NCBI GenBank assembly: GCA_027484685.1
Contig: JAIXSO010000070.1
Location: forward strand, 1 to 51,696
Source: Bacteroidota bacterium
GTDB taxonomy: Bacteria; Bacteroidota; Bacteroidia; UKL13-3
Length of the DNA: 51,696 nucleotides
Direction: 5' to 3'
Numbering within the stretch: the first letter of the stretch is position 1; each line of letters opens with the position of its first letter. The position numbers and the translations under genes are program-made. Shown here piece after piece: positions 10,884 through 23,706 of the stretch. The notes below the pieces were generated by a model, which did no database searches, was not told where the DNA came from, and worked only from the letters and a program-made list of their open reading frames with translations.

Positions 10884-13800
10884 ATGAAAAATAGATTTAT
10901 TCTTGCTTTAAAAAATGTGCTTTTAATAGCAACCTTATTTTTTGCTACTAAAGCAGTTGCACAGTTACCCACCATTACATCCTTTACGCCTACTTCTGGT
11001 TCAATAGGTTCCTTGGTAACAATTACAGGTACAAATTTAAGCACACCAACAGCATTATCAATTGGTGGAGTAAGTGCTATAGCTGTTTCACGTACCGCAA
11101 CCAATATAGTCGCCATGGTAATGCCTGGTGCAGCTAATGGAACCATTAGTGTTACAACCGCTGGTGGCAGTGCTACCAGTAGCAGTAGTTTTAGTGTTAT
11201 AGCTAGTGTGCCCCCGGCAGCTCAACAAGGCAATAAACTAGTTGGAACTGGCAATGAGGGTAGTAACTCGGAACAAGGATACTCAATATCAATCTCTGCA
11301 GATGGGAATACCGCAATTGTTGGTGGATATACCGATAATTCTAGCCAAGGAGCGGTATGGATTTATACCCGTAGTGGAGGTGTTTGGAGCCAACAGGGGA
11401 ACAAATTAGTAGGAACAGGCAATGTTGGTACAGCATTACAAGGTAATTCTGTAAGTTTATCAGCTGATGGAAACACAGCTATAGTTGGAGGTTATTTTGA
11501 TAATAGCCAGCAAGGGGCTGCTTGGATTTTTACACGTAGTGGGGGAGTTTGGAGCCAACAAGGGAACAAATTAGTAGGAACAGGTAATATAGGTGTAGCG
11601 CAACAAGGTTTTTCAGTGAGTATATCAGCTGATGGAAATACCGCCATTGTTGGCGGAAAAGATGATAATAGCCAGCAAGGCGCTGCTTGGATTTTTACTA
11701 GAAGCGGAAGTACTTGGAGTCAGGTGGGAAGCAAACTAGTCGGTACTGGCAGTATAGGTGCAGCGCAGCAAGGTAATTCAGTTAGTTTATCAGCAGATGG
11801 TAATACTGCAATAGTGGGTGGAGTTTTAGATAATAGCAATCAAGGAGCTGTATGGATATTTGCTCGAAGTGGAAACGTTTGGAGCCAGCAAGGTGATAAA
11901 TTGGTAGGTACAGGTAACGTTGGTGCGGGAAGGCAAGGTGCATCAGTAAGTTTATCAGCAGATGGTAATACTGCAATAGTGGGTGGAGCTTTAGATAATA
12001 GCAATCAAGGAGCTGTTTGGATATATACTCGAAGCGGAAGCGTTTGGAGCCAGCAAGGTAATAAATTGGTAGGTACAGGCAATGTTGGTGCGGCAAGGCA
12101 AGGATCATCAGTTAGTTTATCCGCTGATGGAAATACTGCTATAGTTGGAGGACCAGGAGATAACAATAATTATGGTGCTGCATGGGTTTATACTCGAAGT
12201 GGTGGAGTATGGAGCCAACATGACAATAAACGAGTTGGAGTTGGAAGTTTAGGAGCTGTTAGTCAATGCCGATCAGTGTGTTTGTCGGCAGATGGCAATA
12301 CTGCAATGATAGGTGCATCATTTGATAATAGTAGCTTAGGAGCTGTTTGGGTGTTTAGTGGTTTAGCACAGCCTCCTACCATTAGTTCATTTTCACCAAC
12401 ATCTGGACCAATAGGAACTTTAGTAACTATAATTGGTACAAACTTAGCCACTCAAACTAGTTTAACTATTGGTGGAGTAAGTGCCATACCTATTTCGAAT
12501 ACTGGAACTAGTTTGGTTGCCATGGTAATGCCAGGTGCTACTACAGGTAACATTAGTGTTGCTAATTCTAGTAGTAGCGCTACAAGTTTCAGTAGTTTTA
12601 CAATAACAACAAATGCAGTACCAGTAAGCCAACAAGGTGATAAATTAGTAGGTACAGGAAATATTGGTGCAGCACAACAAGGTACTTCAATTAGTATATC
12701 TTCAGATGGAAATACGGCCATTGTAGGTGGTTTTAAAGACAATTCAAATGAGGGTGCCGCATGGATTTATACTCGTTCTGGAGGAGTTTGGAGTCAGCAG
12801 GGTAACAAACTAGTAGGGACAGGCAATGTCGGGGCAGCACAACAAGGTTATTCTGTGGGTATTTCAGCCGATGGAAATACTGCTATTGTTGGAGGGATTT
12901 TAGATAATAGTAGTCAAGGAGCAGCATGGATTTTTACTCGTAGTGGAGAAGTTTGGACACAACAAGGTAATAAATTAGTAGGAACAGGTAATAGTGGAGC
13001 AGCTCAACAAGGTTATTCTGTAAGTTTATCCGCTGATGGAAATACAGCCATAGTAGGAGGAATTGCAGATTTTGTCAATAATGGAGCGGCATGGGTTTTT
13101 AACCGCATTAGTGGTGTTTGGAGACAACAAGGTAGTCCACTTCGTGGATCTGGTAACACTGGTGCGGCCCGAAGAGGTTCTTCAGTAAGTCTATCTGCCG
13201 ATGGAAATACTGCCATAATTGGAGGATATTCTGACAATAGTAATCAAGGAACGGCATGGATTTATATCAGAAGCGGGGGAGGATGGTTTCAGCAAGGCAG
13301 TAAATTGGTAGGAACAGGAAATTCAGGTTCAGCGCAACAAGGTAGGTCAGTAAGTATATCAGCTGATGGAAATACAGCAATTATTGGTGGATCTTCAGAT
13401 AATAGCAGTCAAGGCGCGGTATGGATATTTACAAGAAGTGGTACAACCTGGAATCAACAAGGTAATAAACTGGTTGGGACCAGTAATATTGGAGCATCAC
13501 AGCAAGGTTGTTCTGTAAATTTATCCGCTGATGGAAATACTGCAATAGTAGGTGGAAGTGCTGATAATGGTAATATTGGTTCAATATGGGTTTATACTAG
13601 AAGTGGTTCAGTATGGAGCCAATATGGAAGCAGATTTATTGGCTCAGGTAACATAGGCAATGCAAGCCAAGGTGTTTCAGTATGTTTATCAGCCGATGGA
13701 AATACCGCTATGATTGGTGGAAATACTGATGATTCAAATCAAGGTGCCGCTTGGGTCTGTTTTGGTAATCCCCCAGCTCCAACTATAACATCCTTTTCTC

Positions 13801-16800
13801 CTTCTTCTGGAGCAATAGGAACTTTGATAACAATAACAGGTTCAAACTTAGGCACATTATCAACTTTAACCATTGGTGGAGTAAATGCAATAGCAATTTC
13901 AAATAATGGAACTAATTTGGTTGCGATGGTAATGCCAGGCACTGCAACAGGAGCTATCAACATTACAACCGTAGGCGGTACTTCCATCAGTGGGAGTAAT
14001 TTTACGGTTACTGCAAATATACCTATCGGAGTCCAACAGGGTAACAAATTAGTAGGAACAGGCAATACAGGTGCTGCAAACCAAGGATATTCTGTAAGTG
14101 TATCCGCTGATGGAAATACAGCAATAGTAGGAGGATATTCAGATAACACAAATCAAGGAGCTGCCTGGATTTATATTCGAAGTGGTGGAGTTTGGAGCCA
14201 ACAAGGGAGCAAATTAGTTGGAACGGGGAACTCAGGTGCTGCTCAACAAGGTTTTTCTGTAGGGATATCTGCAGATGGCAATACCGCAATAGTTGGAGGA
14301 TTTGCTGATAATAACAATACAGGTGCCGCATGGATATTTACCAGAAATGGAGTAACTTGGAGTCAACAAGGCAATAAACTAGTAGGTACAGGAGTCGTGA
14401 TGACATTAGCTCAACAAGGAAGGTCGGTAAGTATTTCAGCTGACGGAAATACAGCTATTGTAGGAGGAATAGGTGATAATACCAATCAAGGTGCTGCATG
14501 GATTTTTACTCGAAGTGCAGGGGTTTGGAGCCAACAAGGGAGCAAACTAGTAGGAACAGGCAGCACAGCTTCTGCAAGGCAAGGAACATCAGTTTGTTTA
14601 TCAGCCGATGGAAATACAGCCATAGTTGGTGGAAATGCAGACAATTCTAATCAAGGTGCTGCTTGGGTATTTACCCGAAGTGGCAATTCTTGGAGCCAAC
14701 AAGGAAGCAAATTGGTAGGAACAGGCAATACAGGAGCAGCGCAACAAGGTTTTGCAGTAAGTATATCTGCTGATGGAAATACCGCCATTGTTGGTGGAAA
14801 TGCAGACAATACAAATCAAGGTGCTGCTTGGATATTTACTCGAAGTGGAGGTTCTTGGAGCCAGCAAGGTAGTAAGTTAGCAGGTACAGGCAATTCAGGT
14901 GCTGCAAACCAAGGTTATTCTGTAAGTTTATCCGCTGATGGAAATACTGCCATGCTTGGAGGATATTCAGATAATACTAATCAGGGAGCCACATGGGCTT
15001 TTACTCGCAGTGGAAACGTTTGGAGTCAACAAGGTAATAAAATAATTGGTACTGGAAATATAGGCGCTGCTGTGCAAGGTGTTTCAGTTTGTTTATCAGC
15101 AGATGGGAATACCGCTTTTATTGGAGGAAATATTGACAATAGTAATCAAGGAGCTGCTTGGGTATATATCAGTGCTCCTGCTCCTACTTTTGAATCATTT
15201 ACTCCCGCATCAGGTTCAATTGGTTCATTGGTCACCATTTCAGGAACAAATTTAAATACATTTTCTACTTCTATAAGTATTGGCGGGGTCAATGCCATAG
15301 TAGTATCAAATACAGGAAATAGTTTGGTAGCAATGGTAATGCCAGGGGCTACAACAGGAACTATTGTTGTAAATACCAATTCAGGTACCGCCACTAGTAG
15401 TGGTAATTTTACCATTTCAACAAACTTACCTATAGGAATACAGCAAGGAAGTAAAATAGTTGGGACAGGTAATACGAGCAATTCTTCGCAAGGCAGATCC
15501 GTTAGTCTATCGGCTGATGGCAATACAGCTATTGTAGGTGGCCATGGAGATAATGCAAATCAAGGAGCTGCTTGGATATATACACGAAGTGGTGGAGTTT
15601 GGAGTCAACAAGGCAGTAAATTAGTTGGCACAGGAGTTCTTGGCGTTGCAATACAAGGTACTTCTGTATGTATATCAGCAGATGGAAACACTGCCATTGT
15701 AGGGGGGAGCGTTGACAATTCAAGTGTAGGTGCTGCATGGATATTTACTCGTTCAGGTGGTGTTTGGACACAACAAGGAAATAAATTAGTGGGAAGTGGT
15801 AATACTATATCTTCTCAACAAGGTACTTCAGTTAGCATTTCAGCTGATGGTAATACGGTTGTTGTTGGAGGAAGTGGAGATAATGTTAATCAAGGAGCCG
15901 TCTGGGTTTTTACGCGCAGTGGAAATATTTGGAGCCAACAAGGCAGTAAGTTAGTTGGGACAGGCAATTCGGGTGCCGCACGACAAGGTGCCTCAGTAAG
16001 TTTATCTGCCGATGGGAATACTATAATTGTAGGAGGAATAGGTGATAATTCAAATCAAGGGGCTTCATGGATTTTTGTTCGTAATGGAGGAGTTTGGAGT
16101 CAACAAGGGAGTAAATTAGTAGGAACAGGCAATTCGGGTGCTGCACAACAAGGAACATCTGTAAGTTTATCTGCTAACGGCAATACTGCAGTAGTCGGTG
16201 GTCCTTCAGATAATAGCAACCAAGGTGCTTCATGGGTATTTACTCGCAGTGGCAGTACTTGGAGTCAACAAGGTAGCAAATTAGTTGGGATTGCTAATAT
16301 TGGCGCGGCACAGCAAGGAAGGTCTGTAAGTTTATCAGCAGATGGAAATACTGCCATTGTTGGAGGAAATTCAAATAATTCTAACAATGGTGCAACTTGG
16401 ATTTTTGCTAGAAGTGGAAGTGTTTGGGGTCCTGGTTTAGGTGCAAAGTTTGTAATTGGAACGGGTAATACAGGTGCCGCCCAGCAAGGTTTTTCTGTTT
16501 CTTTATCAGCCGAAGGAAATACAGCAATTGTAGGTGGGTTTGCTGATAATAATAACATTGGCGCAGCGTGGGTTTTTGTTCCATCTTCTAATAATGCTAA
16601 TTTAAGTGGGTTGTCTTTAAGCTCTGGTACTTTAAATCCAAGTTTCGCTTCTGGCACAACCAGTTATACCGCTAATGTTAATAATGCAATTTCAAGTATA
16701 ACTGTTACACCAACTGAAGAAGATACTAATTCTATTCTTCATGTAAGGGTGAATGGGGGAACTTATACCCTAGTAAACAATGGCGTAGCTTCTGGTTCAT

Positions 16801-18923
16801 TAAGTTTAAATGAAGGAAATAATACCGTAGATGTTAGGGTTACTGCTCAAGATGGCACAACAATAAAAACATACACTATAACAGTGACTAGAGAACCTTT
16901 GCTCATTACCTGGACTGGCGCTATTAGTAATGTTTGGGACATAGCATCTAATTGGAGTCCAACACAGATTCCAACCAGTGCTAATAATGTAATTATTGCA
17001 ACGTCAAGTAATAATCCTGTTTTGGGCTCAGGTGGTGCTACCGTTAGAAATGTTGCCATCAATAGTGGAGCAACTTTAACTCTAGCAGGAAATTTGATTA
17101 TAAGGGGTAATTTAAATACACAAGGAACATTAAATGCTTTAAGTGGTACACTTTTTTTTAATGGTTCAGTAGCGCAAACGGCTGACGCTAATGGAGGAAC
17201 TGTTCAAAACTTAACCATTGATAATGCAGCAGGTGTAACCTTAACAGGTGCATTGAATTTAACAGGTGTACTAACCCCTACTAGTGGAGTATTAACTACT
17301 GGAGGTTTTTTAACATTAAAATCATTTGCTAACTCAAGTGGAAGCATTGCTAGTAATTTGTCAGGTAGCAATTATATTTCGGGTAATGTTATAGTAGAAC
17401 GTTTTATTTCTGGTCAATCAAACCGAGGCAGGTGGCGCTTTTTATCATCACCTGTAAGTAATGCAACAATAGCTAGTTGGATGAATCAATTTTATGTAAC
17501 AGGTCCTGGCGATAGTGTTCCTGCAAACCGTGTGAATGGCTCAACATTAGGGACTTTAAATACCAACGGTTGGCATACCAATATGGCCAATATTTCATTC
17601 CCTAATTCAACTATGAACTCGAATGTAAATAGTGTAAAAACCACTTCGGTAAGAACCTATAACGAAGCAGTTATAACAGGCGATATAAATAGTGGATGGG
17701 AAAATTTAACAAGTAATACCCAAAACCTAACACCAGGCAGGGGATTTAGAGCATTTATTAGAGGAGATAAAAATGCACCTAACTCAGCCAATACACAATT
17801 AGGTTTAGGAGCAAATAGCAATATTCAAGGTGCCGTAAACCTAACTTTAACAGGCCCAGTAAACCAAGGCGAAATAAATGCCAACCCAACATTTACAAGT
17901 TCAGGTACTATTGGCAATGATGGTTGGAATTTAATCGGCAATCCTTACCCTTGTTCATATAATTTATTTGCACATATCAATGCACCAAGCAATAGCTCCT
18001 TTTTTGCTAATATAAGCCCAACGGTTTATGTTTATAGCGCAGTAACTGGAGGATATGTAAGTTATAATACTGCTGGAGGCGGAGTAAGTGCAGGTTTAGA
18101 TAATGGAATAATACCACCAGGGGCAGCATTTTTTATAAAAGCAACAGGTGCAAATCCAGTGTTTAAGTTCCAAGAAGCATATAAAACAACCAATAGTCAT
18201 TTGACTGGAGGCGTGCATAAAACGGAGATAAAAACGGAAGAATTTGGAATAAAATATTTTAAAGATACCACAGAAAGAGATTACACGGTTATCAAAATGT
18301 ATGATGGTGCAACTTTGAACAATGATGTGTATGATATAGTAAAAGTAAGAAACGAGAACTTAAATTTATCGGCTTATGGAACAGATTCGGTAAATTTAAC
18401 AGCGAGTGTATTACCGCCAATAGTGGAAGAAACCCGTATAAAATTAAATGTAGAAGCCAGCCAAATTGGAACGTATAATTTTGATTTTACCAATATGGAT
18501 AATTTTAATAAAGGTATTACTGTAAATTTATTTGATAGATATACCAACAAAACTATGGATGTTAGAAAAAATACTAAATACACTTTTGAAATGGGTCCAG
18601 ATAGCAACCAATGGGGCAATAATCGTTTTGAATTGATATTGAATTTAGACAAAACCAATGTAGATGAGTTTGCTTTATTAAACAAAACACAAATGTTGGT
18701 TTATCCAAACCCTGCTACCGATGTATTAAATATAAATATTAACAACACTAACTTTAAAAACTCAGAAGTAGTGGTTTATAATATTTCAGGTGCTGAAGTG
18801 TTAAAAACCAATATGGCAGTTAATAATGCTCAATTAAATATTGAAACATTATGCAATGGTGTTTATTTTGTAAAAGTAAGTAACGAAAACGGCTTTAATA
18901 AAACAGTAAAATTTGTGAAATAA
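10884..18923 (+). CDS. Giant T9SS surface protein: 4 x (TIG + seven FG-GAP-like blades)
   Basis: A 2679-residue secreted protein. The signal peptide (1-26, ends AVAQ) leads into four near-equal units of about 468 residues, each an IPT/TIG domain (starting near 28, 497, 964, 1432) followed by exactly seven repeats of about 55 residues. The blade pattern is KLVGTGN..QG.SVSLSADGNTAIVGG..DNSNQGAAWIFTRSG..W, close to FG-GAP_2 repeats, so each unit should fold as a TIG plus a seven-bladed propeller. After them come a cadherin-like beta-sandwich (about 1904-1998), a beta-rich stretch (2000-2200), a large C-terminal region and a type A T9SS sorting domain (about 2600-2679, starting LVYPNPATDVLN). Likely an adhesin on the cell surface. 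Neighbouring blades 4 and 5 are almost identical in DNA, pointing to recent duplication. The kinase/regulator pair lies upstream and a PID-CTERM-like gene downstream. Confidence 0.93.
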   Translation: MKNRFILALKNVLLIATLFFATKAVAQLPTITSFTPTSGSIGSLVTITGTNLSTPTALSIGGVSAIAVSRTATNIVAMVMPGAANGTISVTTAGGSATSSSSFSVIASVPPAAQQGNKLVGTGNEGSNSEQGYSISISADGNTAIVGGYTDNSSQGAVWIYTRSGGVWSQQGNKLVGTGNVGTALQGNSVSLSADGNTAIVGGYFDNSQQGAAWIFTRSGGVWSQQGNKLVGTGNIGVAQQGFSVSISADGNTAIVGGKDDNSQQGAAWIFTRSGSTWSQVGSKLVGTGSIGAAQQGNSVSLSADGNTAIVGGVLDNSNQGAVWIFARSGNVWSQQGDKLVGTGNVGAGRQGASVSLSADGNTAIVGGALDNSNQGAVWIYTRSGSVWSQQGNKLVGTGNVGAARQGSSVSLSADGNTAIVGGPGDNNNYGAAWVYTRSGGVWSQHDNKRVGVGSLGAVSQCRSVCLSADGNTAMIGASFDNSSLGAVWVFSGLAQPPTISSFSPTSGPIGTLVTIIGTNLATQTSLTIGGVSAIPISNTGTSLVAMVMPGATTGNISVANSSSSATSFSSFTITTNAVPVSQQGDKLVGTGNIGAAQQGTSISISSDGNTAIVGGFKDNSNEGAAWIYTRSGGVWSQQGNKLVGTGNVGAAQQGYSVGISADGNTAIVGGILDNSSQGAAWIFTRSGEVWTQQGNKLVGTGNSGAAQQGYSVSLSADGNTAIVGGIADFVNNGAAWVFNRISGVWRQQGSPLRGSGNTGAARRGSSVSLSADGNTAIIGGYSDNSNQGTAWIYIRSGGGWFQQGSKLVGTGNSGSAQQGRSVSISADGNTAIIGGSSDNSSQGAVWIFTRSGTTWNQQGNKLVGTSNIGASQQGCSVNLSADGNTAIVGGSADNGNIGSIWVYTRSGSVWSQYGSRFIGSGNIGNASQGVSVCLSADGNTAMIGGNTDDSNQGAAWVCFGNPPAPTITSFSPSSGAIGTLITITGSNLGTLSTLTIGGVNAIAISNNGTNLVAMVMPGTATGAINITTVGGTSISGSNFTVTANIPIGVQQGNKLVGTGNTGAANQGYSVSVSADGNTAIVGGYSDNTNQGAAWIYIRSGGVWSQQGSKLVGTGNSGAAQQGFSVGISADGNTAIVGGFADNNNTGAAWIFTRNGVTWSQQGNKLVGTGVVMTLAQQGRSVSISADGNTAIVGGIGDNTNQGAAWIFTRSAGVWSQQGSKLVGTGSTASARQGTSVCLSADGNTAIVGGNADNSNQGAAWVFTRSGNSWSQQGSKLVGTGNTGAAQQGFAVSISADGNTAIVGGNADNTNQGAAWIFTRSGGSWSQQGSKLAGTGNSGAANQGYSVSLSADGNTAMLGGYSDNTNQGATWAFTRSGNVWSQQGNKIIGTGNIGAAVQGVSVCLSADGNTAFIGGNIDNSNQGAAWVYISAPAPTFESFTPASGSIGSLVTISGTNLNTFSTSISIGGVNAIVVSNTGNSLVAMVMPGATTGTIVVNTNSGTATSSGNFTISTNLPIGIQQGSKIVGTGNTSNSSQGRSVSLSADGNTAIVGGHGDNANQGAAWIYTRSGGVWSQQGSKLVGTGVLGVAIQGTSVCISADGNTAIVGGSVDNSSVGAAWIFTRSGGVWTQQGNKLVGSGNTISSQQGTSVSISADGNTVVVGGSGDNVNQGAVWVFTRSGNIWSQQGSKLVGTGNSGAARQGASVSLSADGNTIIVGGIGDNSNQGASWIFVRNGGVWSQQGSKLVGTGNSGAAQQGTSVSLSANGNTAVVGGPSDNSNQGASWVFTRSGSTWSQQGSKLVGIANIGAAQQGRSVSLSADGNTAIVGGNSNNSNNGATWIFARSGSVWGPGLGAKFVIGTGNTGAAQQGFSVSLSAEGNTAIVGGFADNNNIGAAWVFVPSSNNANLSGLSLSSGTLNPSFASGTTSYTANVNNAISSITVTPTEEDTNSILHVRVNGGTYTLVNNGVASGSLSLNEGNNTVDVRVTAQDGTTIKTYTITVTREPLLITWTGAISNVWDIASNWSPTQIPTSANNVIIATSSNNPVLGSGGATVRNVAINSGATLTLAGNLIIRGNLNTQGTLNALSGTLFFNGSVAQTADANGGTVQNLTIDNAAGVTLTGALNLTGVLTPTSGVLTTGGFLTLKSFANSSGSIASNLSGSNYISGNVIVERFISGQSNRGRWRFLSSPVSNATIASWMNQFYVTGPGDSVPANRVNGSTLGTLNTNGWHTNMANISFPNSTMNSNVNSVKTTSVRTYNEAVITGDINSGWENLTSNTQNLTPGRGFRAFIRGDKNAPNSANTQLGLGANSNIQGAVNLTLTGPVNQGEINANPTFTSSGTIGNDGWNLIGNPYPCSYNLFAHINAPSNSSFFANISPTVYVYSAVTGGYVSYNTAGGGVSAGLDNGIIPPGAAFFIKATGANPVFKFQEAYKTTNSHLTGGVHKTEIKTEEFGIKYFKDTTERDYTVIKMYDGATLNNDVYDIVKVRNENLNLSAYGTDSVNLTASVLPPIVEETRIKLNVEASQIGTYNFDFTNMDNFNKGITVNLFDRYTNKTMDVRKNTKYTFEMGPDSNQWGNNRFELILNLDKTNVDEFALLNKTQMLVYPNPATDVLNININNTNFKNSEVVVYNISGAEVLKTNMAVNNAQLNIETLCNGVYFVKVSNENGFNKTVKFVK
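11220..16590 (+). repeat. 28 tandem 165-bp coding repeats in four blocks of seven
   Basis: Blocks lie at about 11220-12365, 12636-13770, 14031-15174 and 15437-16590, separated by TIG segments. Units start about 1.40 kb apart (12373, 13774, 15180). Repeats 4 and 5 of block 1 (about 11730-12058) share long identical DNA runs. In blocks 1-3 the seventh blade carries a distinct SVCLSADGNTA version. Confidence 0.88.
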
Positions 18924-19214: not shown

Positions 19215-19258
19215 AAAAAAAGAGGCTGTTTTCGTAATTAAAAACAGCCTCTTTTTTT
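19215..19258. terminator. Bidirectional terminator between convergent genes
   Basis: An 18-bp perfect stem, AAAAAAAGAGGCTGTTTT (19215-19232) with AAAACAGCCTCTTTTTTT (19241-19258), around an 8-nt loop. It serves the small PID-CTERM-like gene (plus) and the transketolase C-terminal gene (minus, ends 19278). Confidence 0.9.
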
Positions 19259-19277: not shown

Positions 19278-20234
19278 TTATTTTTTTCTAGCTATAACTT
19301 TCAATGCTTTTTCAACTATAGCATTAGCTGTTAAGCCATATTTTTCCATTAGTTGGTCAGGTGTTCCGCTTTCACCAAAACTATCGTTCACAGCTACCAT
19401 TTCTACTGGTGTTGGGTTATTAATAGCCAATAATTGGCAAATACTATCTCCCAAACCGCCATTCATTTGGTGTTCTTCGGCAGTTACAGCGCAACCAGTT
19501 TTAGCTACACTTGCCAAAATAGCTGAAGCATCTAATGGCTTAATGGTATGAATATTAATAATTTCTGCATTAATTCCTTTTTCTGCTAAAATATGCCCGG
19601 CTTCAATGGCTTTCCAAACCAAGTGGCCTGTAGCAAAAATACTTACATCGGTTCCTTCGTTAAGCATTAATGCTTTTCCAATTTCAAATTTTTGGTCTAC
19701 TGGAGTAAAATTAGGCACAGCCGGACGACCAAAACGTAAATAAACAGGTCCTTCATAATCGGCAATTGCCATGGTGGCTGCTTTGGTTTGGTTAAAATCG
19801 CACGGATTAATAACTACCATATTAGGTAACATTTTCATCAAACCAATATCTTCTAAAATTTGATGTGTTGCACCATCCTCGCCTAAAGTTAAGCCAGCGT
19901 GTGATGCACAAATTTTTACATTTTTATTGGAGTAAGCAATCGATTGGCGAATTTGGTCATAAACCCTGCCAGTTGAAAAATTAGCAAACGTGCCTGTAAA
20001 TGGAATATGGCCACCTATAGTTAAACCTGCTGCAACGCCCATCATATTTGCTTCTGCAATTCCTACTTGAAAAAAACGGTTTGGATTATCTTTAATAAAA
20101 GCATCCATTTTTAAAGAGCCAATTAAGTCGGCACAAAGCGCAACTACGCGTTCGTTTTGTTTTCCTAATTCGTGTAGTCCTTCGCCAAATCCACTTCTTG
20201 TATCTTTAATGTTTTGAATTTCAAACGTTTTCAT
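19278..20234 (-). CDS. Transketolase, C-terminal subunit (split enzyme)
   Basis: A 318-residue protein equal to the pyrimidine-binding and C-terminal domains of transketolase. The catalytic Glu61 sits in QVGIAEANMMGVAAGL; the middle domain shows SHAGLTLGEDGATHQ and VYLRFGRPAVP, and the C-terminal domain GHLVWKAIEAG. It must pair with the N-terminal subunit to move two-carbon units in the pentose phosphate pathway. That subunit is encoded on the same strand at 22861-23706, but two unrelated genes and a terminator lie between. This gene has its own promoter (20275-20303). Related split 1-deoxyxylulose-phosphate synthase-like proteins exist, but the residues fit transketolase better. Confidence 0.9.
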   Translation of the reverse strand: MKTFEIQNIKDTRSGFGEGLHELGKQNERVVALCADLIGSLKMDAFIKDNPNRFFQVGIAEANMMGVAAGLTIGGHIPFTGTFANFSTGRVYDQIRQSIAYSNKNVKICASHAGLTLGEDGATHQILEDIGLMKMLPNMVVINPCDFNQTKAATMAIADYEGPVYLRFGRPAVPNFTPVDQKFEIGKALMLNEGTDVSIFATGHLVWKAIEAGHILAEKGINAEIINIHTIKPLDASAILASVAKTGCAVTAEEHQMNGGLGDSICQLLAINNPTPVEMVAVNDSFGESGTPDQLMEKYGLTANAIVEKALKVIARKK

Positions 20235-20274
20235 GTGTAGGGTTGTTGTGTTTTCGTTATTTGTTATTGCTTCG

Positions 20275-20303
20275 CAAAATAATCAATGGAAAGCTAAAAC
20301 AAA
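20275..20303 (-). promoter_or_regulatory. Promoter of the transketolase C-subunit gene
   Basis: On the minus strand, TTTG (20303-20300), 17 nt, then TTATTTTG (20282-20275), one mismatch to TAnnTTTG. The start codon is 40 nt downstream. Confidence 0.4.
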
Positions 20304-20336
20304 CCTAATTTATTGCTATTATTATTAACAATTAAA

Positions 20337-20368
20337 ATAAAAAAGGCCGCCTTTTTGGGGCGACCTTT
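20337..20368 (-). terminator. Terminator after the 20391 lipoprotein gene
   Basis: On the minus strand AAAGGTCGCC (20368-20359) pairs with GGCGGCCTTT (20351-20342), followed by a T tract (A run 20337-20344 on the plus strand). It separates the lipoprotein from the transketolase C-subunit gene. Confidence 0.85.
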
Positions 20369-20390
20369 AAATTATTTTGTTTATTTAAAA

Positions 20391-21344
20391 TTAGTTTTGG
20401 ATAATTAAAACAACTTTAGTTGAGCCAGTTGCATCGGTAGCAACAGCAGTAAATTTAGCTAAACCTTTTACTCCGCTAGCAGTTTGGAAAGCATAAACAT
20501 CGCCAACAGCAATTGAAGTAACTTTTTCAGTTACGCCTGTAGCAAATGTTTCAGCGGCAAATGTATCATCAACCTTGGTGCTTGTTGCAATATTATCAAA
20601 TTGTGTAGCAGTAACTGTGGTAGTTTTAAACTTAGTAGCATTTTGACTTGCCCAAGTATTAATTTCTGAATTCCAAATTACTTTTGCTCCGTCCATATTA
20701 TTTGGTGCTGCAAATGCATTTTTATCGTTTTGACCGTAATAGTACACAAAATCAATATCACCAGAGTTTGTTCTGGCTGTGCCGGTTTCTCCAGGAGTGT
20801 AAGTTGTAAAGTTATTTGCTATACCTAAAAATTTGTAAGGAATAGCAGTATTTGTTTGCGCACCTAATTCAATTTCTTTTGATACAATTACTGCATTGTC
20901 ATTTACAATATTGTAGGTAATTGACGATGTGCCAGTTAGGCCTTTGTTGTCTTTTGCTGTAGCTGTAAAAGTAATTTTTGAGTTTACTGATGCTCCTAAT
21001 GAGTTAATTAAATCGGCTACAGAAATTGATTCTGTAAATCCATTCACTTGATCTGCTTCTAGTGACTCAAATGAGCTTGAACCAAATGTTTGTCCATCAA
21101 CTGCAATTTCTAATTTCATTGAATCGATAGTTGTTCCTGAAACGGGAGTAACAGCAATTTTCATAAACGAAAACACAAAAAAATTGTTGGTGTCAACTTT
21201 GTTAGTGCCAGTGCTATCAGTAATTGAAACTGTTGGGCCTGTTCCTGTTGGGGTTGTAGTAGTTGTTTCGTCTTTTTTACAAGATGTAACTGTTAAAGCA
21301 ATTGCAAAACCTGCAATAAATAGTGATTTGATTGTTTTTTTCAT
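20391..21344 (-). CDS. Lipoprotein of unknown function
   Basis: A 317-residue lipoprotein with lipobox VTSC (Cys22), then KKDE and a Thr/Pro/Gly linker. The rest is beta-rich: a likely Ig-like module at about 40-150 (ending KITFTATAKDNKGLTGTSSITYN, of bacterial cell-surface Ig style) and a second half of about 160 residues with DFVYYYGQNDKNAFAAPNN. No catalytic motif is seen and I cannot name the second half. Likely on the cell surface or the periplasmic face of the outer membrane. It has a full -7 box of its own (21388-21395) and a terminator after it, so it can be made as a single-gene message although it lies between the transketolase halves. Confidence 0.8.
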   Translation of the reverse strand: MKKTIKSLFIAGFAIALTVTSCKKDETTTTTPTGTGPTVSITDSTGTNKVDTNNFFVFSFMKIAVTPVSGTTIDSMKLEIAVDGQTFGSSSFESLEADQVNGFTESISVADLINSLGASVNSKITFTATAKDNKGLTGTSSITYNIVNDNAVIVSKEIELGAQTNTAIPYKFLGIANNFTTYTPGETGTARTNSGDIDFVYYYGQNDKNAFAAPNNMDGAKVIWNSEINTWASQNATKFKTTTVTATQFDNIATSTKVDDTFAAETFATGVTEKVTSIAVGDVYAFQTASGVKGLAKFTAVATDATGSTKVVLIIQN

Positions 21345-21387
21345 TTTGTTTTTCTTAAATGTTTTAGGCTTATTCTAAAAATCGTGC

Positions 21388-21395
21388 CAAAGGTA
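21388..21395 (-). promoter_or_regulatory. -7 box of the 20391 lipoprotein gene
   Basis: TACCTTTG on the minus strand, a full match to TAnnTTTG, 43 nt before the start codon. No -33 TTTG is evident upstream. Confidence 0.45.
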
Positions 21396-21406
21396 GTACT
21401 TTATTA

Positions 21407-22819
21407 TTAATTTAGTGTTAGATTAGTAGCTTGACTCGAAGTTATTTTAAATTCTCTGATAAATGTATTATTACTTCTTGTAGCACCTTTTCCGCGATAA
21501 ATTAGCTTATAATCACCTGGTTGTATAATCACTGTGTGGCGTTGTTGGTCTACTGGAAGTTTATGTACCCAAACTAACTCACCTCTAATTACCTGGTAAA
21601 TATCCATGTAAAATGTTTGTATTGGGCAGGTAATATTTAGTTTTCCAGGTTGTGGAATTTGTATGGTAGTAACCATATTTTGGTCAACAGAGGCATCTTT
21701 AAAAAACATTCTTGGTAAGGTAAGTACCTCTAAATCGTATTTTCCTACAATATATTTTTCTTTTTGATTGGCATTTTGAACATGTAAGGTTTTGTTTTGA
21801 TTACTTGGCCTTACTATAAATTTTAGGTTGTCGTAGTTGGTTAAACCATCAATTTTAACTAAAAGTTCGCCTTGTGGTGCATCAACCCCAATAACGGTGT
21901 GTTTACCTGCAGTTACAACTATATTATCTCTAACAATTGGTGGAATGGTGTGAACTACCATTTTATATTTGTACAATGGATCTAATAAAATTGTATCAGG
22001 ATTTCCGCGCTCATTAATGGTATGCATGTAATTATACAACATGGTGCCTCTTTCTGTTTCGTAAAAAGTCATGTTTACGTTGGTTTCTGTAGGGCGGCTG
22101 TAAATGTCCAATAAATTAACTTGAGCTGTGGTATTGTTCAGTGCTTGAGAAACAACCATATTTAGTACATCGTTAAATTGTTGTTCAGTATTGGCATCGT
22201 AATACCTGCCCACACATTCAAACGCCTTTTGAAAATCGGCTGTGCTACCCAATCCTATAATAAAAGGTTTTAAAACTACGCCTTTGCTTTGCAATGCCTC
22301 TGAAATAGCGCAAGGATCACCTTGACATTCTTCTATTCCATCGGTAATTAAAATAATTACGTTTCTGGTATTGGGTTCTAATGGAAAATCGTATGCCGCT
22401 TGCTGCAATGAATAGGCAATTAAAGTAGTTCCTTTTGGCGAAATAGATTGAATGCGTTTTTTTATATCATCGTGGTTGTTTTTCCTAAACGGAACTTCTA
22501 GTCTAGTATCACGGCAATCGCGCTTGGCGGGTGGCGAAGTATGGCCATAAACCCTGAGTGCAAGTTCCACATTTGCAGCGCCTTGTAAACTATCTACAAT
22601 ATTGGAAAGTAACTTTTTAGCTACGTTTATCCTGGTGTCTCGCTCCATTCGGGCAAACATACTTCCACTAGCATCTAACAAAAATAATATGCGAGTTTTT
22701 GCAGGACGGTAAATTTGTTGGGCATTTACAAAGCTAGTTTGTAAACCATTTAATAAAAAAACAGCTACCAAAATAAGTAGCCATTTTTTACACCAAATAT
22801 TTTTAAAATTATTTATCAA
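21407..22819 (-). CDS. Secreted von Willebrand factor A domain protein
   Basis: A 470-residue exported protein. The signal segment (about 12-33, WLLILVAVFLLNGLQTSFVNA) is followed by a VWA domain (about 42-235) with an intact MIDAS start, Asp49-Ala-Ser51-Gly-Ser53 (LFLLDASGSMFA), and the later acidic turn ILITDGIEECQGDPC. A metal-bound MIDAS binds protein ligands. The rest (about 240-470) is beta-rich with repeated short sandwich-like stretches and no named motif. The gene starts 41 nt after the transketolase N-subunit and so probably shares its transcript. VWA proteins serve many roles; a link to sugar metabolism is not suggested by sequence. Confidence 0.85.
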   Translation of the reverse strand: MINNFKNIWCKKWLLILVAVFLLNGLQTSFVNAQQIYRPAKTRILFLLDASGSMFARMERDTRINVAKKLLSNIVDSLQGAANVELALRVYGHTSPPAKRDCRDTRLEVPFRKNNHDDIKKRIQSISPKGTTLIAYSLQQAAYDFPLEPNTRNVIILITDGIEECQGDPCAISEALQSKGVVLKPFIIGLGSTADFQKAFECVGRYYDANTEQQFNDVLNMVVSQALNNTTAQVNLLDIYSRPTETNVNMTFYETERGTMLYNYMHTINERGNPDTILLDPLYKYKMVVHTIPPIVRDNIVVTAGKHTVIGVDAPQGELLVKIDGLTNYDNLKFIVRPSNQNKTLHVQNANQKEKYIVGKYDLEVLTLPRMFFKDASVDQNMVTTIQIPQPGKLNITCPIQTFYMDIYQVIRGELVWVHKLPVDQQRHTVIIQPGDYKLIYRGKGATRSNNTFIREFKITSSQATNLTLN

Positions 22820-22860
22820 GGTTGTTTTTATTAATAACGTTAATATTTAGCTTTTAAGTA

Positions 22861-23706
22861 TTAGTAATCGCCTAAGGTTTCTGGCAATTGGCTTAATGCG
22901 TTAGCAAGCTCTGCATCGTTTGGTGCTACGCCATGCCATTTGTGGCTTCCCATCATAAAATCTACCGGATAGCCCATTTCTGTTTTCATCATTATAAAAA
23001 TAGGTTGGCCTTTTCCTGTAGCATTTTTAGCTTCTTCCATGGTGGCTAATATACTTTCAAAATTATGCCCATCCATGTGTAACACTTTCCAACCAAAAGC
23101 TTTCATTTTATCTTCAATATCAGCACCAATTCCCATTACTTTTTGCGTGCTTCCATCTATTTGTTGGCCATTAAAATCAATGGTAACAATTAAATTATCT
23201 ACTTTATGGTGAGTGGCAAACATAAATGCTTCCCAGTTTTGTCCTTCTTGAATTTCACCATCGCCCATTAATACATAAACTAAATTTTTATCACCATTTA
23301 GTTTTTTAGCTAATGCTGCTCCTGCAGCTACCGAAACTCCTTGGCCTAATGAACCACTGGCCATTCTAATTCCTGGTAAGTGTTCTGCTGTAGCAGGATG
23401 GCCTTGTAAACGGCTATTTAATTTTCTAAAAGTGCTTAACTCACTTACTTCAAAATAGCCAGAACGAGCTAAAGCACTGTAAAATATGGGTGAAATATGT
23501 CCGTTCGACAAAAAGAAAACATCTTCTTCTTTAGCATCCATATCAAACGATGGATTGTGTTTCATAATATGAAAGTACAAAGCCGCAAGAAAATCAGCAC
23601 AGCCTAATGAACCACCAGGGTGACCCGATTTTACTGCGTGTACCATTCTTAATACGTCTCTGCGCATTTGACTTGAAATAGCTTGAAGTTGTTCTATGTT
23701 TGCCAT
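22861..23706 (-). CDS. Transketolase, N-terminal subunit (split enzyme)
   Basis: A 281-residue protein equal to the thiamine-diphosphate pyrophosphate-binding domain of transketolase. Motifs: SGHPGGSLG (27-35), FLSNGHISP (65-73), and the ThDP/Mg site GDGEIQEGQNWEA (148-160) closed by Asn179 in DFNGQ. It lacks the pyrimidine-binding and C-terminal domains, which are supplied by the gene at 19278-20234. In most genomes with split transketolase the two genes are adjacent; here 2.6 kb with a VWA and a lipoprotein gene lies between them. A candidate -7 box (TACATTCG, minus strand, 23740-23747) precedes it. Confidence 0.92.
   Translation of the reverse strand: MANIEQLQAISSQMRRDVLRMVHAVKSGHPGGSLGCADFLAALYFHIMKHNPSFDMDAKEEDVFFLSNGHISPIFYSALARSGYFEVSELSTFRKLNSRLQGHPATAEHLPGIRMASGSLGQGVSVAAGAALAKKLNGDKNLVYVLMGDGEIQEGQNWEAFMFATHHKVDNLIVTIDFNGQQIDGSTQKVMGIGADIEDKMKAFGWKVLHMDGHNFESILATMEEAKNATGKGQPIFIMMKTEMGYPVDFMMGSHKWHGVAPNDAELANALSQLPETLGDY

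Follow-up and report, generated by a model that had tools for sequence, protein, structure and literature searches.

The window analysed here is a stretch of 51,696 nucleotides from a Bacteroidota bacterium of the class Bacteroidia (contig JAIXSO010000070.1 of assembly GCA_027484685.1). It encodes a transketolase split into two subunits, TktN and TktC, the genes for which are separated by genes for an exported VWA protein and a lipoprotein. It is proposed, with a probability of about three in four, that this locus is a derived form of an old Bacteroidia operon, tktN-vwa-tktC, into which the lipoprotein gene and a terminator were inserted at the level of the genus. An earlier note on this DNA had read the locus as two enzyme halves, normally adjacent when split, that surface-protein genes had abnormally pushed apart. 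The separation itself is confirmed: TktN, the VWA protein, the lipoprotein and TktC are encoded, in that order of transcription, by four consecutive genes on the minus strand, with the following features.

22861..23706, minus strand: TktN, the thiamine-diphosphate (PP) domain subunit, 281 residues (Pfam Transketolase_N, E 6.9e-53)
21407..22819, minus strand: exported VWA protein, 470 residues, TTG start (Pfam VWA, E 4e-13)
20391..21344, minus strand: fast-evolving lipoprotein, 317 residues (no Pfam family; lipobox TVTSC by eye)
20342..20368, minus strand: intrinsic terminator after the lipoprotein gene (10-pair hairpin and T run)
20300..20331, minus strand: candidate TktC promoter, with TTG at 20331-20329, 21 nucleotides, and TAGGTTTG at 20307-20300 (genus-conserved block by eye)
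19278..20234, minus strand: TktC, the Pyr and C-terminal domain subunit, 318 residues (Transket_pyr, E 3.8e-39; Transketolase_C, E 2.4e-28)

TktN, TktC and the VWA protein were searched separately in a class sample of 139 genomes at least 95% complete, representing 59 families. Arrangements were assigned by script, with gap limits of 2000 bp between tktN and vwa and 3000 bp between vwa and tktC; a genome could give several matches but was counted under one arrangement. The commonest arrangement, in which the VWA ortholog lies on the same strand between the two halves (N-VWA-C), was found in 79 of the 139 genomes and 35 of the 59 families, those of the window included. Both halves were found in 121 genomes, and the adjacent pair that the earlier note took to be normal (N-C) accounts for 17 of these; no VWA ortholog was found in any of the 17 at an E-value of 1e-40. 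Elsewhere in the sample, the halves are apart without a VWA gene (11 genomes) or with one at another site (5), the VWA gene adjoins tktN with tktC elsewhere (6) or not found (2), it adjoins tktC with tktN elsewhere (3) or not found (1), it occurs without split halves (4), or none of the three genes was found (11). The VWA gene adjoins at least one transketolase half in 91 of the 100 genomes that bear it.

A recent disruption of an adjacent tktN-tktC pair, peculiar to the window's genome, would suit the lipoprotein gene, which at this place is restricted to the genus, and for that gene such a reading stands. It is refuted for the VWA gene, whose place between the halves in so many families, at operon-like spacing, also led to the rejection of that gene as an intruder particular to this genome. 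As an account of the whole locus, the disruption is very improbable. The arrangement is common at the level of the class for the VWA gene but not for the lipoprotein gene; the oddity is mostly not genome-specific, and the more interesting fact is that transketolase loci across the class have a gene for an exported VWA protein embedded in them.

For spacing statistics, 52 N-VWA-C loci were fetched, the window's included; three further members of the window's genus were kept for the trees (55 sequences) but not for these statistics. The distance between vwa and tktC has a median of 9.5 bp, and is at most 20 bp in 35 of the 52 loci and at most 100 bp in 46. Spacing between tktN and vwa is known only loosely, as automatically assigned ATG starts are imprecise and overlaps of 74–79 bp are probably artefacts. 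Between vwa and tktC, no terminator with at least three G-C pairs was found in any of the 51 loci outside the genus by the script that was also applied within it. This result and the operon-like spacing make the three genes look like one operon in most relatives. The window has short gaps between tktN and vwa (41 bp) and between vwa and the lipoprotein gene (62 bp), but its vwa and tktC lie 1172 bp apart, with the lipoprotein gene and the terminator inside. It thus departs from the short, terminator-free spacing of the class operon and represents a derived state in which the final link, from vwa to tktC, is interrupted.

The VWA protein tracks the two halves about as well as the halves track each other. 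Mantel correlations are 0.61 for TktN and VWA, 0.54 for TktC and VWA and 0.54 for TktN and TktC, none of which was reached in 2000 permutations, and 18–20 of 52 splits are common to the trees in every comparison. Furthermore, the presence of the VWA gene on a transketolase tree of 94 genomes requires 10 changes, against a mean of 24 and a minimum of 17 when presence is shuffled. Early presence followed by several losses fits these data best by parsimony on the midpoint-rooted protein tree.

One rival account makes the VWA gene a neutral passenger that entered the locus in a single chance event and was kept by the need for both flanks, with little function of its own and no link to transketolase. 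The scattered halves of several lineages, which indicate that tight linkage is not required, and the lack of the gene from adjacent-half loci with otherwise similar downstream genes are compatible with such a history, but the gene also endures where these flanks are missing. It is present in four genomes (families f48 and f57) in which split halves were not found and a fused transketolase occupies an open frame of 669–701 residues, and it is intact at other sites in families f21 and f26. It is tandemly doubled, between or beside the transketolase halves, in loci L153, L157, L175 and L277, and 78 positions of its product are conserved in at least 50 of 55 sequences. Persistence where both transketolase halves are gone points to a function of its own, and the passenger account is considered unlikely. 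The losses of the VWA gene and of the transketolase halves from a single ancestral locus seem to have been separate events, and the VWA gene has the appearance of a long-standing neighbour that is useful in its own right, not of an intruder.

The lipoprotein gene has a much narrower distribution. The family of the window was sampled with 64 genomes from 14 genera, and a search at the level of the order gave the same 64. Both halves were found in 59 of these genomes and lie on one contig and strand in 44. The gap between tktN and tktC is 1375–1547 bp in all 36 same-contig genomes outside the window's genus, and 2622–2948 bp in seven of the eight within it; in the remaining one, G043, it is 1643 bp. 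Among the loci read, the smaller gap holds one VWA gene and the larger gap holds the VWA and lipoprotein genes. The halves lie on different contigs in the other 15 genomes, some of which reflect contig breaks; this is the case in all genomes of genera g3 (five), g7 (one) and g8 (three), and in G020 each half, on its own contig, lies more than 100 kb from the contig start.

By coordinates, the lipoprotein gene occupies this locus in 9 of 10 genomes of the window's genus, the tenth being G043, and it was seen here only in the genus. The protein matches no Pfam family and carries a motif, TVTSC, which we take to be a lipobox. Its relatives occur elsewhere in the family, with a match in 35 of 62 genomes searched (1e-5), the genus included. 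It shares 56–65% identity with its counterparts in genus-mates whose TktC is 90–98% identical. G043 (locus L102) still has remnants of the sequence on either side of the lipoprotein gene, as well as the block before tktC, but it has lost the left arm of the hairpin, and the script no longer accepts a hairpin there; these remnants and the lost hairpin arm fit a deletion of the lipoprotein gene. A distant paralog of the inserted lipoprotein (29% identity) lies elsewhere in the window's genome (G000:C43:113488-114438).

The terminator that the earlier note placed after the lipoprotein gene is borne out. In the window (20368-20342) it consists of 10 pairs, 6 of them G-C, followed by a T run, and none of 100 shuffled sequences was as good. 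Terminators were tested in eight of the nine genus genomes that bear the lipoprotein gene (L261 included, G038 left out), and a hairpin with at least three G-C pairs and a T run follows the gene in all eight loci, although its sequence varies. At least four G-C pairs are present in seven of the eight, L100 having three, and none of 100 shuffles was as good for any of seven genus hairpins. This conservation suggests that tktC is probably transcribed apart from tktN in this genus, so that the earlier note was likely right about separate transcripts. Lying 62 bp after vwa, the lipoprotein gene more likely ends the transcript that begins with tktN. All four genes might instead form one transcript in the genus too, with the hairpin merely dampening expression or setting the 3′ end of a transcript. 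Their common strand and the short gaps on either side of vwa are compatible with this, but the hairpin and T run are kept in 8 of 8 loci despite differing sequence, and the block upstream of tktC is, by eye, better conserved than the rest of the gap. A single transcript is therefore rated as rather unlikely.

Promoters of Bacteroidota follow the consensus TTG-N17-23-TANNTTTG. Chance alone would give 101.4 copies of the TANNTTTG box in the window, and 99 are present, so a single box proves nothing, and single boxes were rejected as promoter evidence. Sigma-70 consensus sites were also rejected, 16 having been found against 22.3 expected. The lipoprotein gene had been credited with a −7 box and promoter of its own; the box, TACCTTTG (21395-21388), lies 11 nucleotides beyond the stop codon of vwa and lacks a TTG at a distance of 17–23 nucleotides. 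Of seven genus loci, four have some TANNTTTG in the gap between vwa and the lipoprotein gene, its distance varying between loci, and three (L097, L259 and L260) lack it. A promoter for the lipoprotein gene was thus looked for and is unsupported. The TktC promoter suggested by the earlier note fares better in part. Its box, TAGGTTTG, is preceded at 21 nucleotides by TTG and sits in a block of ~75 nucleotides that is conserved in the genus, apparently more so than the rest of the gap as judged by eye; this makes it a promoter candidate of moderate strength. The box taken by itself is at chance level. The exact TAGGTTTG box recurs in L202, L097 and L260, and L100 and L101 have other matches to TANNTTTG.

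Several observations weigh against the proposed history. The TktC box is absent in L103 and L259, and is inexact in four of the seven lipoprotein-bearing loci overall. Outside the genus, just 14 of the 51 stretches between vwa and tktC reach 60 nucleotides, the length able to hold a terminator, so the lack of terminators there is a weak control. One weak hairpin between vwa and tktC outside the genus (G113) passes the script with a looser tail rule, and 2 of 51 stretches between tktN and vwa outside the genus hold a weak hairpin. In the trees, 12 of 30 strong transketolase splits conflict with some strong VWA split, which may reflect a degree of gene transfer or poor resolution, and the polarity of VWA gain and loss depends on parsimony on a midpoint-rooted protein tree. 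In a draw across the phylum, a VWA ortholog was found in 6 of 198 genomes (1e-30), all from the window's own class and including the window's genome, and one of the six matches (G133) is partial. Set against the class sample, this shows that the frequency of the VWA gene depends strongly on which families are drawn. The 20 misses listed from this draw all come from families without a VWA ortholog in the class sample, and the draw leaves presence in other classes unsettled.

In the proposed history, then, vwa would have been a member of an ancestral tktN-vwa-tktC operon, and is probably still co-transcribed in most relatives, its product being an exported protein of VWA and beta domains with a function of its own. 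In the genus, a member of the lipoprotein family would have been inserted between vwa and tktC together with the terminator. The tktN-vwa-lipoprotein transcript would end at that terminator, tktC would be expressed from a promoter within the conserved block that precedes it, and TktN and TktC would join after translation as an alpha2-beta2 enzyme. Assembly after translation would permit separate transcripts, as the lineages with scattered halves suggest. The genus would lose the equal subunit dosage that one mRNA provides.

The two subunits were identified as transketolase halves by both Pfam and NCBIfam, and the VWA domain by Pfam. The TktN match covers positions 7–271 of the 334 of Transketolase_N and Pfam found no Pyr domain, leaving the PP domain alone on its chain, while TktC carries the Pyr and C-terminal domains together on the second (Transket_pyr and Transketolase_C). 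Among solved structures, TktN is closest to the N-terminal chain of a split transketolase (6yak, E 9.1e-72; best fused enzyme, 5e-42) and TktC to the C-terminal chain (6yaj/6yak, E 1.3e-92; best fused enzyme, 7.8e-48). Both halves are thus closest to the split chains of Carboxydothermus hydrogenoformans, far above fused transketolases, DXS and E1 enzymes.

The earlier note had suggested a check for another, full-length transketolase, and none was found in the window's genome (99.87% complete, 72 contigs), where the single strong Transketolase_N match is that of the window. The only other match (contig C57, E 1.7e-4) falls in a frame of 330 residues that looks like an E1 alpha subunit, a putative label, and six other Pyr-domain matches lie in frames of 328–912 residues that, by size, would suit DXS and 2-oxoacid dehydrogenases. 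In view of this, TktN and TktC presumably form the transketolase of the organism. Among genomes with split halves, the check for a fused enzyme covered the window's genome alone. Of the 15 class genomes without split-half matches, 10 were searched for Transketolase_N, and all 10 have a long-frame transketolase of 663–712 residues; G064 and G166 have a shorter Transketolase_N frame of ~300 residues besides it.

In C. hydrogenoformans, both chains of the split enzyme are needed for cofactor binding, and combining chains that were made separately yields an active alpha2-beta2 enzyme, according to the accessible part of PMC7661550. By analogy with this solved enzyme, TktN and TktC should assemble post-translationally into an alpha2-beta2 enzyme. 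The domain division is the same, with PP on one chain and Pyr and C-terminal domains on the other, and in the window's genome, too, a fused enzyme was not found; unlike the Carboxydothermus genes, the window's halves are separated by a gene for an exported protein. The same part of PMC7661550 presents split transketolase as characteristic of archaea and certain thermophiles, whereas both halves occur in 121 of the 139 Bacteroidia genomes sampled here. It also calls C. hydrogenoformans the sole bacterium with the split enzyme only, to which the window's genome is a counter-example. Split transketolase is also noted in Lachnospiraceae, in the portion of PMC11964587 available, and the portion available of PMC5248499 does not mention transketolase. 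Archaeal halves may be neighbours or not, as here: they are adjacent in Sulfolobus solfataricus and separated in Methanocaldococcus jannaschii, and the accessible text of PMC7661550 does not mention an exported VWA protein between them. The 6-deoxy-6-sulfofructose transketolase subunits G and H, as described in the available part of PMC11659671, form a two-subunit enzyme with the domain division seen here. Subunits G and H neighbour catabolic genes in a sulfoquinovose cluster, whereas the window neighbours that were read suggest none, no dedicated search having been made.

The VWA protein has a signal peptide, recognised by eye, and a VWA domain with the sequence LDASGS, which we take to be MIDAS-like, followed by ~240 residues of beta domains. 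Four cysteines (C102, C165, C170 and C202) are present in all 55 VWA sequences, and a DxSxS motif is present in 44 of the 55, some starts having been set too late. The AlphaFold2 model of the protein has a mean predicted local distance difference test score (pLDDT) of 82.5 and a predicted template modelling score of 0.55, and its C-terminal part modelled alone has a pLDDT of 91.0. The modelled VWA domain resembles many VWA domains at Z 20–22, that of Mfa5 from Porphyromonas gingivalis (Z 21.4, root-mean-square deviation 2.0, 176 aligned residues) being one among them, and the beta domains resemble transthyretin and CnaB sandwiches at a non-diagnostic Z of ~8. The top Foldseek match is the pilus tip protein SpaC (E 3.2e-14), and structure searches gave general matches only. 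Like SpaC and Mfa5, the protein combines an exported VWA domain with further beta domains, but it shares just 9–16% sequence identity with them. No pilus genes were recognised among its partly annotated neighbours, of which ten proteins were compared with Pfam. The domain make-up is consistent with an adhesin-like or envelope role for the exported protein. No description of a VWA gene between transketolase halves was found in the open-licence literature of PubMed Central.

Genes for a sigma factor, an LTXXQ-like protein and a class-III aminotransferase are found repeatedly downstream of tktC. Judged by eye, 25 of the 52 N-VWA-C loci (within a flank of ~1.5 kb) and 16 of the 19 named N-C-adjacent loci (14 of these 16 named Pedobacter) have the sigma factor next after TktC, and YchF lies upstream on the opposite strand in 20 of the 52. 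The LTXXQ label derives from one match below the Pfam cut-off (21.5 against 24.3 bits), with no match for the protein of L281, and from sequence similarity; the labels ‘ECF’ (extracytoplasmic function) and ‘anti-sigma’ for neighbouring genes are likewise putative. LTXXQ proteins are relatives of Spy/CpxP, and the neighbourhood is envelope-stress-like. In the fused-enzyme genomes, the VWA gene follows TsaD in four of four (by Pfam in one, by similarity in three), and in two of the three loci in which the next gene is readable, that gene encodes a sigma factor similar to the one found after TktC in other genomes. At these four loci (L262, L263, L264 and L265), with a fused transketolase and split halves not found, the VWA gene, adjoining TsaD, is near a divergent TamB-like gene.

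A bolder reading of this neighbourhood is that the VWA protein is deliberately co-expressed with the pentose-phosphate enzyme, coupling central sugar flux to an envelope function in adhesion or stress. The ancestral locus would then have been YchF divergent from tktN-vwa-tktC, a sigma factor, a putative anti-sigma factor and an LTXXQ-like protein, and the insertion of lipoprotein gene and terminator in the genus would have uncoupled TktC from that control. This reading is considered unlikely.

The unstudied VWA family gains a precise genomic address from its place between the subunit genes in 79 of the genomes, and the class offers natural experiments: genomes that have a VWA gene but no split enzyme, others with the split enzyme but no VWA gene, and a genus in which a new terminator would separate the subunit transcripts. 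The last of these would test how much co-transcription matters for equal amounts of the two subunits.

On the other side of tktC, a gene on the plus strand (10884-18923) runs towards it and encodes a repeat-rich, apparently exported protein of 2679 residues, the C-terminal segment of which resembles, by eye, a type IX sorting domain. A hairpin flanked by poly-A and poly-T lies past the tktC end, at ~19217-19258, and is, judged by eye, apparently a two-way terminator.

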